64,000 bases of DNA, taken from an uncultured Pseudomonadota bacterium. Its GTDB lineage: Bacteria > Pseudomonadota > Gammaproteobacteria > Ga0077536. The notes under the pieces are model-generated. The model did no database searches and had not been told where the DNA came from. It worked only from the letters and a program-made list of their open reading frames with translations. Where the stretch lies: positions 248,001 to 312,000 of the forward strand of contig CAIKBL010000051.1 of NCBI GenBank assembly GCA_903825645.1. Direction: 5' to 3'. Shown in pieces: positions 39,848 to 47,691 of this stretch. A program made the position numbers and the translations under genes. Positions within the stretch are counted from its first letter, which is position 1. Every line of letters begins with the position of its first letter.

Positions 39848-41323
39848 TTAGCTCTCTAGGCTCGACCGTGTCGGTTGGTGGCATAGTGCCAAGCAGGTAA
39901 TGTCATCGGATTGCGCGACACGCTCCGTGAAGACGTCCAGTGCAGCGAGCAGCCGCTGTATGCATTGCGCAGGCGCCTCGTAGGCTATTCCTTCGAGCGC
40001 CGACTTTACCCGGGCTGAGCCAAATTCTTCGAAATCGGGGTTCAAGGCTTCGGTGACGCCATCCGAAATAAACAACACAGTGTCTCCTGCCTGTAATTCA
40101 ATCTCTGCCGACTTGTAAGATTGCCCGCTACGCACACCGAGTGCGCAACCCTTAGGCGCGTCCAGCCACTGCGCGGGCCCAAGGTTCGGTAGCAGTAGAG
40201 GCTGCACATGTCCGGCATTCACGAAGATCAGTCGTCCGCTCGCCGGTTGATAATGGCCATAGACCGCGGTAACGAACAACATGTCCGTGTTGCCCTCGTG
40301 TAGCAGGTTGTTGACGTCGACCATCAGAATCGCCGGGTCTTGCGTTGCCACAACCCGGTTAAACTGTAACGTCGTCGCGAATATCGTGCTTTTTGCAGAC
40401 ATGGCAAATAGCCCTGCGGGAATGCCTTTCCCGCAAACATCGGCGACGACCAAGCATGCCGCACCGTCCTGAACATGAAAGTGGTCATAGAAGTCGCCAC
40501 CAACGTCCTGCGCGGGCCGCATCAATCCCTGCACCGCGTAGCCGTCCGTCGTTGGCCATGGGGCGGGCAAGAGTGACTGTTGGAGTTGCGCCGCGATGCG
40601 AATTTCGCGCTGCAGGCGAGCCAATGAGAGTGATTCGTGGTACTGCGCGATGAAACCCTCGGTGCGATCACGATGTACGATGGCGCCACCAATGACGCTG
40701 AGCGCTATCACGGTCAAAATACCCGAAAATCCCATGAATTCTTCAATGAAATTCTGTGGCTCGGTCGTCTTAACCGCTGCGAGAGTGACAAAGGTGACCA
40801 TCACCACGATGCCGGACAAGAATGCAAAAAGATTCACCGCAGCGCGTACACGCCAGTGAAGAATGTACACAAAATTGACTGTCATCAGCAGCGCGCTCAG
40901 GCGCAGGAAATTACCGCGATCGATCATGGTCACGGCAGCCAAAATCATTAGTGCGGAGATGAAACTGATGAGGTGCAGCGCGAGAAGACTTCCTGCCAGC
41001 GGGCTGCCTCCGGAGACGCGCGGAGATCTCAGCGCGAGGGCCGGCAGCGCACTCAAGACGAGGAGGACGTGACTTGCGCCGGCGAATACGTAGAGTAGCT
41101 GAACATTACTGGGCAGCGCGCTCCTTGTTTCGAATCGGTGTATGTCGATAAACAGCAGAAACGGGAACAGAACAAGTGCTACCAACGCAATGTAGGGTGC
41201 CACCGATTCATTTGCGCGTTCTCCTCGTACCAAGAGCACACGCCGCTCCTCTACGTCCCATCTTGCCAACTGGCGAGACTCATTAAGCCAGTCCGGAACA
41301 AAGCGGCCGAGTATCTTCAGCAC
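39848..41323 (-). CDS. Membrane-anchored SpoIIE/RsbU-type PP2C phosphatase
   Basis: About six predicted TM segments, then AAQLQQSLLPAPWP...MRPAQDVGGDFYDHFHVQDGAACLVVADVCGKGIPAGLFAMSAKS...VNAGHVQPLLL...LFISDGVTEALNP...DDITCLAL. Confidence 0.93.
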   Translation of the reverse strand: MLKILGRFVPDWLNESRQLARWDVEERRVLLVRGERANESVAPYIALVALVLFPFLLFIDIHRFETRSALPSNVQLLYVFAGASHVLLVLSALPALALRSPRVSGGSPLAGSLLALHLISFISALMILAAVTMIDRGNFLRLSALLMTVNFVYILHWRVRAAVNLFAFLSGIVVMVTFVTLAAVKTTEPQNFIEEFMGFSGILTVIALSVIGGAIVHRDRTEGFIAQYHESLSLARLQREIRIAAQLQQSLLPAPWPTTDGYAVQGLMRPAQDVGGDFYDHFHVQDGAACLVVADVCGKGIPAGLFAMSAKSTIFATTLQFNRVVATQDPAILMVDVNNLLHEGNTDMLFVTAVYGHYQPASGRLIFVNAGHVQPLLLPNLGPAQWLDAPKGCALGVRSGQSYKSAEIELQAGDTVLFISDGVTEALNPDFEEFGSARVKSALEGIAYEAPAQCIQRLLAALDVFTERVAQSDDITCLALCHQPTRSSLES

Positions 41324-41336
41324 TGGCGTCGCGGCA

Positions 41337-43043
41337 TCAGTTTTCCAGACGAAGAAGCACGTGACAGCGCTCCCCCACCGTCTTGATGCGCACCCGATCA
41401 GCGCGTTGGCTCAAGATCCAGCCGGCGAGCTTAGCGAGACCTGTGGGGTCGTGGAGTAGCGTTTCTCGGTCGGGACGTGTTTTGACCAGTTCTATCGCTG
41501 GCCCTTGATAAGAGACATCAATGTCCAGATTGTATTCGTCGAAAGCGACGTCGACGGTGATCTTCCCGACTGCCAGAACCGTGGTGATAGATTCCATCGC
41601 ATGATGCAGCGACTCAGTCGCGGTCGCGATGGTCTCTTTTCGAGCCGCCACCGATTCACCAAAACTCAACAATCCGTCCCGAATCATGGCGTAGTTGTCT
41701 GCCTCCGCAACCAGCACCAGTTGCGTACGCCGTGTGTTACCGATCTGCATAAGGTAATTCAGCACAAGCGCGACAACAGCGCTGAACGAGACGGGCGAGT
41801 TCAGGATAGGTTTCAGTAAAGGCGGGGCGTTCGCATACAGGTCAGGCAGCAGGCCAGCGCTGAGCCCGAATGCTAGGGCGCAGCCAGCCATGAGGATTCG
41901 GCGCGTGTCCAACAGTCTTGACGTCAGTAACTGAATGCCAGCCAACATCATAAAGCAGCAGCAGTAAATAACCGCGGCTCCCATGGTCGAGGCTGGAAGT
42001 GCCGTAATTATCGCGGACAGTTTTGGCATGAACGAGCAGAGCATCATCAGAAAACCGAAACTGTAGGCGATGGTGCGGCTAGTAGCGCCACTGGCAACAG
42101 CCAGCCCGACATTGCTAGAGGAGCTGTTGTGGCTCACTGTGCCGAGTAGGCCAGCCATAACATTGATGACACCGAGCGCGGTGGCACCGCGACTCACAGA
42201 TGCCATGTCCGTGCGCTTCCAGTCCGTGTCGTTGATCTTCTGGCACATGGTCAGATCGCCGACATTCTTGAGTGACACCGCTAGGCACGCGACCATGAAG
42301 GGCAAAAGTAAAGACCACTCAAATGCGTAGCTGCTGACGGTTCGATGGGGCAGGTTAAACCAAGGCTCGTTCGCGACCTGATGAAAAGCAGTCGGCGGTA
42401 TAGCCCGCAGCGCGAAGGCAGTAGCAAGGCCGGCGATAATACCGATGAGTATCGGGAACAGCTTGATCACACCACGGCCCCAGACGGTACAGGCCATCAT
42501 GGCAGATAGGCTGATGATCCCGACGGCTATATTGCTCGCCTGATCGGCACCCGATGTCAGCGTACTCGGTTCAGCCAACAGTCTGTTAAATCCAACCGGA
42601 AGCACCGTAATGCCCACCATGGTCATAACAACCCCGATCACCTCGGGCGGGAACAAGGGCCTGAGACGTGGCAGCAGGCGCGCCAGTGTGATTTCCATGG
42701 CGCCAGCGACCGCCGTCATACCGAACAGCGTGGGTAGACCGTACCCGCCCCCAGCAAGGAGGCTGGTAGAAAAGAAGGCTGGCGACCCGATGGGCGGGCA
42801 CAGGAAGCCAGAGCCTAAGAATCCACGTCGGTTCGCTTGCAGTATGGCACCCAGCCCAGTCACCACCATCCCCATCCGCAGTATGTTTTGCATGTCCCCC
42901 TCCAACGGCGAAAATGCCGCCAACGAGGTGGCCATCATCACCCAGCCTGCCGCAGCCGTCAGCACCTGTTGAAATCCCAATATGGCGAGCGTCGCAAGTG
43001 GCGGCGTATCGTCAACGCCATAGGTCAACGTCGTGGGTTTCAT
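41337..43043 (-). CDS. NCS2-type xanthine/uracil permease-like protein with C-terminal HATPase-like domain
   Basis: N-terminal polytopic region with NCS2 features (PPIGSPAFFSTSLLAGGGYGLPTLFGMTAVAG, LFPPEVIGVVMTMVGITVLPVGF, NNSSSNVGLAVASGATSR-like segment); last ~126 aa resemble a divergent RsbW-like fold. Start taken at MKPTTLTYG, just after the STAS stop. Confidence 0.85.
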   Translation of the reverse strand: MKPTTLTYGVDDTPPLATLAILGFQQVLTAAAGWVMMATSLAAFSPLEGDMQNILRMGMVVTGLGAILQANRRGFLGSGFLCPPIGSPAFFSTSLLAGGGYGLPTLFGMTAVAGAMEITLARLLPRLRPLFPPEVIGVVMTMVGITVLPVGFNRLLAEPSTLTSGADQASNIAVGIISLSAMMACTVWGRGVIKLFPILIGIIAGLATAFALRAIPPTAFHQVANEPWFNLPHRTVSSYAFEWSLLLPFMVACLAVSLKNVGDLTMCQKINDTDWKRTDMASVSRGATALGVINVMAGLLGTVSHNSSSSNVGLAVASGATSRTIAYSFGFLMMLCSFMPKLSAIITALPASTMGAAVIYCCCFMMLAGIQLLTSRLLDTRRILMAGCALAFGLSAGLLPDLYANAPPLLKPILNSPVSFSAVVALVLNYLMQIGNTRRTQLVLVAEADNYAMIRDGLLSFGESVAARKETIATATESLHHAMESITTVLAVGKITVDVAFDEYNLDIDVSYQGPAIELVKTRPDRETLLHDPTGLAKLAGWILSQRADRVRIKTVGERCHVLLRLEN

Positions 43044-43047
43044 GTCG

Positions 43048-43329
43048 TTATCCGAGATGCACGATATCGTCAAACCCGACAGTCAGAATCACTTCGCGGA
43101 TGGCGGATCTGGCACCCGTCAACTGCAAGGTTCCACCTTTTTTTTCCGTGAGTTTGGCCGCCACCAGCAGAACCCGGAGCCCCGCGCTGCTGAGGAACTC
43201 AATCCCGGAAAAATCCAGTTCCAGAGACTGCGCGTCCCCCCCCAGCAGGCGCCGCATTTCCATTTCATGCTGTGTGGCAGTAGAAGCGTCAAACCGGCCG
43301 ATAGGCTGGTACTTTGCGACGAGAGTCAT
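43048..43329 (-). CDS. STAS-domain protein (anti-sigma-factor-antagonist type)
   Basis: MTLVAKYQPIGRFDASTATQHEMEMRRLLGGDAQSLELDFSGIEFLSSAGLRVLLVAAKLTEKKGGTLQLTGARSAIREVILTVGFDDIVHLG; FLSSAGLRVLL is the STAS phospho-Ser motif region. Confidence 0.92.
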   Translation of the reverse strand: MTLVAKYQPIGRFDASTATQHEMEMRRLLGGDAQSLELDFSGIEFLSSAGLRVLLVAAKLTEKKGGTLQLTGARSAIREVILTVGFDDIVHLG

Positions 43330-43841: not shown

Positions 43842-44465
43842 CTACTCTGTCGGCGGCTCTGCGTACTGGTGGATGCGCCCTTCTAGTTCGTTGAGCAGCC
43901 CCCCCATACCTTGCGCCTTCAAGATTGCATCAAAAGTATCTCGATAGTTGTCGACGATACTGATGCCTTTGATGACAACGTCATAAACGACCCACTCACC
44001 AGCATCATTCCTGAGTTTGTAATTGACGGGAATGCGGTGACCATCAGCGAGAATCTGCGTCTCTACCAGTGCCTTGTTGCCCTTAATCTGCTCTGGACCA
44101 TATTCCACGCGTTGATCCGTGTATGCCTCAAGGCTTGACCTATATCGATCTTCGACATATTGCGAGAAGAAATCGACAAATTGGTGTTTTTCAGCCCTTG
44201 TTGCGGAGTGCCATTTAGTCGCCAGTACGGTTTGCGTCATGCTTCTAAAATCGAAACGCGCATCGACGATCCGGCCTATCTGCGACCATATCTGTTCTTT
44301 TGTCAGGTGTTTTTTTTGCAAAATATGGATGATGGCGTCGACGTTTTCTCGCACCATTTGTTCCGGTCCTATTTGGGTCGCTGAAACAGTTAGCACGGGC
44401 ATTGTCAGCATCAGAGTGAGCGTAACCGACCGGGCAAGGTGCCTAAACATTAACCACCCCAGCAT
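43842..44465 (-). CDS. MlaC/Ttg2D-like phospholipid-binding protein (start may be 44450)
   Basis: Signal peptide; IGRIVDARFDFRSMTQTVLATKWHSATRAEKHQFVDFFSQYVEDRYRSSLEAYTDQRVEY; VVYDVVIKGISIVDNYRDTFDAIL. Confidence 0.9.
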   Translation of the reverse strand: MLGWLMFRHLARSVTLTLMLTMPVLTVSATQIGPEQMVRENVDAIIHILQKKHLTKEQIWSQIGRIVDARFDFRSMTQTVLATKWHSATRAEKHQFVDFFSQYVEDRYRSSLEAYTDQRVEYGPEQIKGNKALVETQILADGHRIPVNYKLRNDAGEWVVYDVVIKGISIVDNYRDTFDAILKAQGMGGLLNELEGRIHQYAEPPTE

Positions 44466-47400
44466 CTTTTTGGAGCGTGGCGCCCGAACGAGTCAAGCCG
44501 ATTATCACTTCACCTTCGCCTATCTCAAAAGTTTCTACTGTTTCACCCTGTGCCGAGACACTAAACAGCAAGTACGCTCCCAAAACCTCGCTCAACACAT
44601 ACTGCCGGTGGCTTTCGACAGCGTCCTGAAAATCAGGACTTCCGGTAATTTCAAGGGATATCCGCTCTGTTAGTTCCAGATCGAGCCCCTTTCGCATCTG
44701 CTGAATACGATTAACCAACTCCCGGGCATAACCTTGCTTTTTAAGCGCCGGAGTGATCTCGACGTCAAGTGCCACGGTGATTCGGTCTTGCTGCGCGACA
44801 GACCAGCCGCCAACCTCTTCGCTAACGATTTCAACATCATCCAAGGACAACGAGATAACGTCGCCCTCGATTTCTATCGAACACGAGCCGGTCCGGAGAA
44901 GCACATCGATTTCGTCTACCCCGAAGGTCGCTATCCTACTGGCCGCAGCCTTCATTTTTTTTCCGAGTTTGGGACCAAGGGTCTTGAAGTTTGCCTTGGC
45001 CGATCGTGAAACCACACTGGCTGCATCTTCGATGAATTCGATTGCCCTGATATTTACCTCATCCAAGATAATCTCGCTTACCGCTTCGACTCGCTCGCGT
45101 TGTACCCCGCTCACACCAGTGACCAATAAGATTCGGCTCAACGGTTGACGAACGTTGATTCGTGCCTTATTCCGGAGCAGAAGAACTAACGACACGACCG
45201 TACGGGCAATGTCCATTCTTGCTTCAAGCTCAGCATCGATCACTGAAGCATCGTACTCTGGGAAGTCCGCCATGTGCACAGAGGGTACTTGGTTGAGACC
45301 CGTTCCTGCATTGAGCGCACGAAATAACCACTCGCCAAAGAAAGGAGCTAGTGGACTCATCATGCGGGAGATCGCCTCCAGGCATTCGTAAGTAGTCTGG
45401 TAGGCACACAGCTTGTCGTGTGAATCCGGTTCGTTGCCGTGTACCTCAGCCGACTTTTTTGCCGCCCAGAAACGAGGCCGCGAACGGCGGATATACCAGT
45501 TCGACAATTGATCGAGAAAATCTTCTATCGCGCGGGCGGCGCGGGTTGCGTCGTATTCTGCATAGGCCGTATCCGCAAGCGCCACCGTAGAGTGCAATCG
45601 GCTCAGGATCCAGCGATCTAGCTCCGTTCTATCACGGGCGTTGACGGCGGGTTCGGAAAAATTGAAGCCATCGATGTTGGCGTAACTTGCCAGGAAACGG
45701 TAGCAATTCTCTAGCGTACTGAAAAATTTATTCCGTGTTTCGGACAATCCCCGAAGGGAAAATTTCATATTGTCCCAAGGGGGCGAATTAGCCATCAAAT
45801 ACCAACGAACCACGTCAGCACCGTGCTCGCCCACCGTTTTGAAGGGATCAATCGTGTTGCCCTTCGACTTGGACATCTTTTCGCCCTTCTCGTCCAAGAT
45901 GAGTCCATTTACAACCACATTACGGAATGCCACGCTATCCATCGTCAAGGTGGCGATCGCATGGAGCGTGTAGAACCACCCGCGCGTCTGGTCAACACCC
46001 TCACAGATAAAATCTGCAGGAAAGTTTTTTTCAAAAATTTCTTTATTTTCGAACGGATAATGCCATTGTGCGAACGGCATCGCGCCAGAATCGAACCAAA
46101 CGTCCAGCACATCCGATACCCGTCTCATCGTGCCACCATCGGGCGCCGGCCAGACCAACGCGTCGACAAAGGGTCTGTGAAGATCGAGGGCGTCGCCTAC
46201 GGGCAAGTTAGTGCCGCATTTTTCGCGCAATTCTGCGACCGAACCTATCACTTCAAAATAATCAGAGCCGGGTCGATCTGAGATCCAGATGGGAAGTGGG
46301 GTCCCCCAAAACCGTTTGCGGCTAAGGGCCCAGTCAACATTATTCTCGAGCCAATTGCCAAATCGACCGTCCCGAATGGCAGGTGGTTGCCAATTGATGG
46401 TTTTGTTGAGCGCGACAAGCTTTTCCTTAACCTGCGTGGTCCGAATGAACCAACTTTCGACGGGGTAGCTCATCAGTGGCGTGCCCTTGCGCCAATCATG
46501 GGGGTAATTATGGAGATAAGAATCCTGCCGATAAAGCAACCCGCGGTTCGTCAGATCTCTATTGACTACCCGATTCGCGTCCTTAAACCAGAGCCCGGCG
46601 ACCAGCGGTGCCTCGGCTAGGAACTTCCCGTCCGGGCCGATAGGATTGAGCAATGGTAGCCCCTCGCGCTGCCCCACTTCGTAGTCCTCTGCGCCAAATG
46701 CGGGAGCGATATGGACGATTCCGGTGCCATCGCCGATCGTCACATAGTCTGCCGTCACCACACGCCATGGACTCCCTTCTGAAGGCGTATTAGAAAGTTC
46801 GTAAAGTGGTTTATACCGTGTGCCGATCAGCGTCCGACCTGAAAAACGATCGAGCACCTGATATTCGCACCGTAAACATTCAAGCCGCGCCTCCGCTAGA
46901 ACGAGCTCTTCTGCATCGCCATCCTGTTCGATCCGAACTCGGACATAGACGATGTCTGGACCGACAGCGAGTGCCACATTTGAAATCAAGGTCCATGGTG
47001 TCGTGGTCCACGCCAACAGGCTCGCGTTGCTTCCATCCTCGAGGCGAAAGCGAACGTACGCACTCGGATCCGTGATTTCTTTATAACCGAGACTCACTTC
47101 GTGCGAGGAAAGTACCGTACCAGTTCCTGGACTGTACCAGGCAATTTTGTACCCCTTGTACAGCAGCCCCCGCTCATAAATGCGTTTGATCAGCCACCAG
47201 ACCGATTCAATATAGTCGGTATGATAGGTTACATAAGGATCTTCCAGATCAACCCAGTACCCCATTTTCCGGGTTAGTGAATTCCACTCCGTCGTATAGC
47301 GATTAACACTATTTCGGCAGGCCTCATTGAACGCGGCGATACCGAATTTTTCGACTTGTTCCCGACCGTCAAGTCCAAGTTCTTTCTCAACTTCTATCTC

Positions 47401-47691
47401 GACGGGGAGTCCGTGCGTATCCCAACCGGCCTTGCGTGCCACGCTGAAGCCCTTCAGGGTTTTGTAACGACAAAACAGATCTTTGATGGTCCGACTCAGG
47501 ACGTGGTGAATACCCGGCCGACCATTCGCCGTCGGCGGGCCTTCATAAAACGTGAATATCGGTCCCTCACGCCGGTGTTCAAGGCAACGCTCGAAAATGC
47601 CTTCACGCTCCCAAAACGCGAGGATTTCCTGCTCGAGGACCGGCTGGGTAAGATTCTTAATTTCAGGAAAAGACTTCGTCATCGCGCTCAA
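44443..47691 (-). CDS. ileS: Isoleucyl-tRNA synthetase, type-2-like (long form)
   Basis: FYEGPPTANGRPGIHHVLSRTIKDLFCRYKTLKGFSVARKAGWDTHGLPVEIEVEKELG; KMSKSKGN; 1082 aa. Confidence 0.95.
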   Translation of the reverse strand: MSAMTKSFPEIKNLTQPVLEQEILAFWEREGIFERCLEHRREGPIFTFYEGPPTANGRPGIHHVLSRTIKDLFCRYKTLKGFSVARKAGWDTHGLPVEIEVEKELGLDGREQVEKFGIAAFNEACRNSVNRYTTEWNSLTRKMGYWVDLEDPYVTYHTDYIESVWWLIKRIYERGLLYKGYKIAWYSPGTGTVLSSHEVSLGYKEITDPSAYVRFRLEDGSNASLLAWTTTPWTLISNVALAVGPDIVYVRVRIEQDGDAEELVLAEARLECLRCEYQVLDRFSGRTLIGTRYKPLYELSNTPSEGSPWRVVTADYVTIGDGTGIVHIAPAFGAEDYEVGQREGLPLLNPIGPDGKFLAEAPLVAGLWFKDANRVVNRDLTNRGLLYRQDSYLHNYPHDWRKGTPLMSYPVESWFIRTTQVKEKLVALNKTINWQPPAIRDGRFGNWLENNVDWALSRKRFWGTPLPIWISDRPGSDYFEVIGSVAELREKCGTNLPVGDALDLHRPFVDALVWPAPDGGTMRRVSDVLDVWFDSGAMPFAQWHYPFENKEIFEKNFPADFICEGVDQTRGWFYTLHAIATLTMDSVAFRNVVVNGLILDEKGEKMSKSKGNTIDPFKTVGEHGADVVRWYLMANSPPWDNMKFSLRGLSETRNKFFSTLENCYRFLASYANIDGFNFSEPAVNARDRTELDRWILSRLHSTVALADTAYAEYDATRAARAIEDFLDQLSNWYIRRSRPRFWAAKKSAEVHGNEPDSHDKLCAYQTTYECLEAISRMMSPLAPFFGEWLFRALNAGTGLNQVPSVHMADFPEYDASVIDAELEARMDIARTVVSLVLLLRNKARINVRQPLSRILLVTGVSGVQRERVEAVSEIILDEVNIRAIEFIEDAASVVSRSAKANFKTLGPKLGKKMKAAASRIATFGVDEIDVLLRTGSCSIEIEGDVISLSLDDVEIVSEEVGGWSVAQQDRITVALDVEITPALKKQGYARELVNRIQQMRKGLDLELTERISLEITGSPDFQDAVESHRQYVLSEVLGAYLLFSVSAQGETVETFEIGEGEVIIGLTRSGATLQKDAGVVNV

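Follow-up and report, generated by a model that had tools for sequence, protein, structure and literature searches.

A membrane protein of the SLC23 fold with an RsbW-like, probably pseudo-kinase tail, encoded between STAS and PP2C genes: a possible partner-switching module acting on a carrier

Within a 64,000-nucleotide stretch of DNA from an uncultured gammaproteobacterium (the whole of this stretch is called the window below), three genes follow one another on the minus strand. The first encodes a STAS-only protein of 93 amino acids (43048..43329, ATG start), the second a 568-residue membrane protein of the NCS2 (SLC23) fold with a C-terminal tail (41337..43043), hereafter also called the carrier, and the third a membrane PP2C phosphatase of 491 residues (39848..41323), whose SpoIIE domain covers residues 286-482. 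An initial annotation of this DNA had proposed such a trio, and its strand, order and spacing are all borne out, including the gaps of 4 nt between the STAS stop and the permease ATG (43043) and of 13 nt between the permease stop (41337) and the phosphatase start (41323); only the phosphatase start codon, given there as ATG, has to be corrected to GTG. Upstream of the trio lie an mlaC-family gene, 513 nt from the STAS gene and on the same strand, and an isoleucyl-tRNA-synthetase-like (ileS-like) gene, and downstream is a convergent gene encoding a REC-PAS-GGDEF-EAL protein. In agreement with the initial annotation, no sigma factor was recognised among the neighbouring genes, nor was any other known partner-switching target, and no kinase gene is linked to the trio within the window. 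There was no PADLOC match to anti-phage defence, and no phage carriage was detected. The ileS-like gene, which has a DUF5915 C-terminal part, is overlapped at its end by the lone MlaC-family gene (window 43842-47691).

Both of the smaller partners retain the residues on which a phospho-switch would depend. The STAS protein matches the Pfam families STAS (E 3e-12) and STAS_2 (E 5e-12) and carries the sequence FLSSAGL at the usual place of the phospho-serine. The likely phospho-acceptor is Ser48 (codon 43188-43186, minus strand), which we take to be equivalent to Ser58 of SpoIIAA, and STAS proteins encoded at related loci share the SSA[GA] motif. The phosphatase matches Pfam SpoIIE (E 1.5e-39), with its metal-site motifs intact (DVGGDFYD, ADVCGKG, SDGVTE and SDDITC). 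Its N-terminal part of about 216 residues contains about five or six hydrophobic segments (~41-216) and no known sensor domain, and its match to the SiaA model is weak (41 bits, against a cut-off of 700).

The membrane domain of the second protein belongs clearly to the NCS2 family, with a match to Pfam Xan_ur_permease (PF00860; E 1.9e-47 over residues 19-398; 162 bits against a cut-off of 27) and homologues that are 37-77% identical over the full length. However, the label of nucleobase permease given to it in the initial annotation is doubtful, as the residues with which this family binds its substrate are replaced. In UapA, E356 in TM8 and Q408 in TM10 contact the substrate and are needed for transport, and their equivalents in UraA are E241 and E290 (PMC3405029); a UraA E241A/H245A/E290A triple mutant has been used as a transport-negative control (PMC11362169). 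In our alignments, Lys259 (codon 42267..42269, minus strand) stands in the place of the TM8 glutamate (UraA E241, XanQ E272, UapA E356), and Ser310 (codon 42114..42116, minus strand) in that of the TM10 glutamate or glutamine (UraA E290, XanQ Q324, UapA Q408). Accordingly, the NAT motif of TM10, Q/E/P-N-x-G-x4-T, whose first residue contacts the substrate, reads S-N-V-G in the window protein.

These replacements extend to the whole group of tailed proteins. Among 40 of these (L112 and L015 are one locus and were counted once), the TM8 position is Lys in 24, Arg in 5 and His in 1 (30 of 40 for the three together), Asp in 6, Asn in 2, and Ser and Tyr in one each, and it is never Glu. The TM10 position is Ser, Ala, Gly, Thr, Val or Ile, with Glu, Gln or Pro in none of the 40. 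All nine untailed NCS2 proteins used for comparison, among them E. coli UraA, XanQ and UacT, have Glu or Asp in TM8 and Glu or Gln in TM10. Since the tailed sequences are related, the replacements are not independent events, although the split at TM10 is still clean across several classes. The idea that the TM8 acid is lost in all tailed carriers was dropped because of the six proteins with Asp. As the substrate residues of both TM8 and TM10 are replaced in the tailed group, the sequences make it unlikely that the tailed protein is a classical nucleobase symporter; it more likely carries a different substrate or serves as a receptor. Public annotation calls the tailed proteins merely ‘solute carrier family 23’. 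In one genome, a second NCS2-like gene is split in two (G000:C80:13328-14538; L002, L003), with a TGA inside either part, and is perhaps a decaying or frameshifted copy.

The cytoplasmic tail (residues ~437-568 of the carrier; 41337..41735, minus strand) has no credible Pfam or NCBIfam match when taken alone, the only hits being chance-level ones to Glyoxalase_4 and DotD. The curated Pfam model PF13581 does not match the window tail, and its best match among 16 tails has E 0.084. Sequence scans by themselves would thus miss the fold. An AlphaFold2 model of the tail built from 12 homologues (pLDDT 92, pTM 0.83) has the element order E-H-H-E-E-H-H-E-E, and its best PDB matches in Foldseek are SpoIIAB (E 6e-7), UsfX and RsbW (E 6e-7 to 3e-5), with TM-scores of up to 0.75 by query length. 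A model of the full-length carrier (12 sequences) reached a pLDDT of 49 and was discarded. In a profile comparison with hhalign, 33 tails matched 14 intact HATPase_c_2 domains with E 4.9e-11 and a score of 64.5, against a maximum of 21.3 among 200 column-shuffled profiles. A tail HMM run against 2,612 proteins and open frames ranked tails first, followed by intact HATPase_c_2 domains only. Because predicted structure and profile comparison both point to HATPase_c_2, the tail is HATPase-like in fold and ancestry, as had been claimed; a tail unlike any HATPase would have spoken against the original proposal, and structure and profile instead place it with SpoIIAB and RsbW.

Fold and ancestry do not, however, make the tail a working kinase. 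Intact HATPase_c_2 domains have in common E...N in the N box, D in the G1 box and G-G-L-G in the G2 box. In all tails inspected, the N-box Asn is absent, the G1-box Asp is Tyr and the glycine motif of the G2 box is degraded; the position of the N-box Glu is acidic in many deltaproteobacterial tails, and the window group has His there. The missing Asn normally serves to chelate Mg2+ and the missing Asp to bond adenine, and both residues have been described as absolutely conserved in HATPase-domain proteins (PMC9137472). Judged by these residues, the tail probably looks CATALYTICALLY dead. Furthermore, a kinase with intact N, G1 and G2 boxes, which is lacking in the trio, is found as a separate RsbW-like protein near the tailed carrier in four related loci only. 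At L088 the genes are those of the carrier, an NMT1-like binding protein, a PP2C, a STAS protein and the intact kinase; at L153, the carrier, STAS and the intact kinase; on a Candidatus Thiodictyon plasmid, carriers, STAS, an NMT1-like binding protein, a PP2C and a kinase whose annotation is short at its start; and at L036, carrier and STAS, with the intact kinase on the opposite strand. Given the lost Mg-ATP residues and these separate kinases, the tail is probably a pseudo-kinase that serves for STAS docking, distinct from the kinase of the module. Of the initial picture of a partner-switching trio with its HATPase slot on the permease, the presence of all three protein classes therefore stands, but the tail is not simply the kinase of that trio.

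Intact HATPase_c_2 genes occur elsewhere in the window genome, three in number. One kinase subfamily is present in all five genomes with a window-type module, as well as in several relatives without the module, and usually has a STAS neighbour of its own. The window genome and further genomes that bear the module also have a separate STAS-HATPase gene pair of one subfamily, with the N box EE[VI]FMNVVMHG (L017, L041, L115 and orthologues); the neighbours of this pair in G052 include another STAS gene and a gene for a binding protein of the ABC type.

The genes of the trio are also found together in other genomes, so the concern that they might not be conserved as a group did not materialise. 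Of 38 loci with a tailed carrier, 14 also have STAS, PP2C and/or kinase genes alongside, arranged in at least four orders and spread over several classes. The gene order STAS-carrier-PP2C is seen in the window, in G052 (L039), in L006 (Burkholderiales) and in L008, and likewise in L007, where the STAS gene is cut at the contig edge. Carrier-PP2C-STAS is the order in L013, L084 and L088, and PP2C-STAS-carrier that in L083; partial sets are present in L009 (STAS), L010 (PP2C, at a contig end), and L036 and L153 (STAS and kinase), and the Thiodictyon plasmid completes the 14. In the remaining 24 of the 38 loci, no STAS, PP2C or kinase gene was recognised nearby, in some cases owing to contig ends, and none was seen within 1.5 kb on either side of the nine untailed NCS2 genes. 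Since the same partners recur next to tailed permeases in unrelated genomes and at none of these nine untailed loci, the arrangement is not a chance one. The PP2C proteins have sensor parts that are unrelated between loci: dCache and HAMP in L010, L013, L088 and Thiodictyon, 5TM-5TMR_LYT in L083, and plain membrane helices in the window. That the module has been re-assembled with different PP2C sensors speaks for a functional link between its genes, in which the tailed carrier would be the conserved output and the sensors of the PP2C proteins interchangeable inputs. The distribution is patchy, with 1 of 36 genomes in the family of the window genome, 6 of 369 in its class and 3 of 399 in a sample of its phylum; in the phylum sample around the genome of L012, the figure is 16 of 395, with one or two of the matches being intact kinases or fragments.

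Several loci have further features in their surroundings. On the Candidatus Thiodictyon plasmid (NZ_CP020371.1, 280715-291482; L145/L146), tailed carriers are encoded twice in full and once as a fragment of the tail only. These three surround genes for a RiPP precursor of the NHLP type and for an ABC ATPase, together with STAS, NMT1-like, SpoIIE and kinase genes, and the module adjoins genes for molybdopterin-dehydrogenase-type subunits. Genes for NMT1/THI5-type binding proteins recur by the module with no obvious ABC permease gene (L088:4815-5831, L015:908-1924, L146:8183-9094), and such a protein is possibly a periplasmic ligand-binding input of the module. The locus L151:7287-11042 (G1098) has a pair of tailed-carrier genes in tail-to-tail orientation, and that genome has three altogether. 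The neighbours of the module at L088 include genes for a PnrA-like binding protein, an NMT1-like binding protein and a nucleoside transporter, a hint from one locus that the signal is nucleoside- or base-related. L036 additionally has a chemoreceptor-type gene.

The best-known targets of partner switching are sigma factors, together with a small number of other regulators. The three protein families are those of SpoIIAA/SpoIIAB/SpoIIE and RsbV/RsbW/RsbU, with the STAS serine and PP2C motifs intact and a tail of the SpoIIAB/RsbW fold. Here, however, the HATPase domain is fused to a carrier and lacks the ATP-binding residues, no sigma factor is adjacent, and the true kinase is separate or unlinked. 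With the NCS2/NAT (SLC23) proteins UraA, XanQ and UapA, the tailed carrier shares a PF00860 membrane domain of equal length and order, but it differs from them in the changes of the TM8 Glu to Lys and of the TM10 Glu/Gln to Ser, in an extra cytoplasmic domain of 130 residues and in its linked regulatory genes. SulP/SLC26 transporters combine a related membrane fold with a C-terminal STAS domain; in the present case, STAS is a separate gene with a phospho-Ser motif, and it is the carrier that bears a HATPase-like domain of the kind that partners STAS. SiaABCD of Pseudomonas aeruginosa likewise has a membrane PP2C, a kinase and a phosphorylated switch protein whose target is not a sigma factor (PMC8457831, PMC7647112); this target is a diguanylate cyclase, with no carrier involved. 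The component families are thus all known, and their combination is a variant of partner switching. In the literature searched, which lay outside most subscription journals, we found no description of an NCS2 fold with a SpoIIAB-like pseudo-kinase, or of its linkage to STAS and PP2C genes.

We tentatively favour the view that the trio carries out partner switching on a membrane carrier in place of a sigma factor, while granting that it is somewhat likelier to be wrong than right. In the scheme that we infer for STAS-tail binding, phospho-control, signal direction and gating, a signal would be perceived by the membrane or extracytoplasmic portion of the PP2C, and this enzyme would dephosphorylate STAS. 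In its unphosphorylated form, STAS would then dock on the NCS2-fold protein, at the catalytically dead RsbW-like domain, and change what this protein does, most likely by gating the passage of a substrate that is non-classical and perhaps anionic. STAS would be reset by rephosphorylation, the work of an intact RsbW-like kinase that is a protein of its own; some relatives encode such a kinase next to the carrier, and in the window genome its gene would be unlinked. This reading draws on the homology of the tail to SpoIIAB/RsbW, kinases known to partner with STAS proteins, on the loss of ATP motifs in the inspected tails together with the separate intact kinases in four loci, on the intact STAS serine and PP2C metal-site motifs, and on PP2C sensor parts that vary while the tailed carrier is constant. 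It is weakened by the 24 of 38 tailed-carrier loci without recognised partners and by the lack of a linked kinase in the window.

The same observations have to be weighed under other explanations. The NCS2-fold protein could instead be a sensor, that is, a former carrier turned receptor, in which ligand binding would make the tail hold or release STAS and so act on an unlinked RsbW-like kinase/anti-sigma factor or another target. This is doubtful, yet a serious contender: residues necessary for nucleobase binding and transport (PMC3405029, PMC11362169) are replaced in the tailed group, intact kinases lie near the tailed carrier in four loci, L036 has its chemoreceptor-type gene, and L088 adjoins the binding protein and nucleoside transporter genes described above. 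However, the PP2C proteins have varied sensor domains of their own, neither a kinase nor another target is linked to the trio in the window, and Lys or Asp in TM8 could suit another substrate, so that transport is not necessarily lost.

The simplest form of the initial proposal, in which the tail would still phosphorylate STAS by way of a modified ATP site and the trio would be a complete module whose kinase is driven by the transport state, is very improbable. In its favour are the clear homology of the tail to SpoIIAB/RsbW, the absence of a linked kinase gene from the window and the acidic residue that many deltaproteobacterial tails still have in place of the N-box Glu. Against it, the window group has His at this position, all tails inspected have lost the N-box Asn, the G1 Asp and the G2 glycines, the first two of which have been described as absolutely conserved in HATPase domains (PMC9137472), and four related loci encode a separate intact kinase. 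It is also improbable that STAS and PP2C are functionally irrelevant neighbours and the tail a structural or dimerisation domain: most tailed carriers are indeed solitary, but partners accompany 14 of 38 of them, in at least four orders and several classes, versus none of the nine untailed NCS2 loci. The mlaC-family gene upstream, on the shared strand, could further suggest that the STAS gene encodes an MlaB-type subunit unconnected with the permease. This we rejected as barely conceivable, since the NCBIfam model mlaB_1 scores 15.9 bits against a cut-off of 90 and orthologous STAS genes adjoin the carrier in L006, L008, L009 and L039 without mlaC.

At the level of the protein family, we regard as evenly poised between right and wrong the proposal that these are SLC23-fold proteins in which the nucleobase site is replaced, mostly by a basic one, and an RsbW-like pseudo-kinase tail is added, the carrier itself being the partner of a STAS phospho-switch, either as a post-translational carrier switch or as a carrier-derived receptor, with the SulP-STAS relation inverted. 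If this holds, partner switching would extend to the direct control of, or sensing via, a membrane carrier with a built-in dead kinase domain, and tailed proteins annotated as ‘solute carrier family 23’ or ‘xanthine/uracil permease’ probably do not transport nucleobases in the known way. A testable idea of how STAS proteins may regulate this membrane fold would also follow from the comparison with SulP-STAS transporters.
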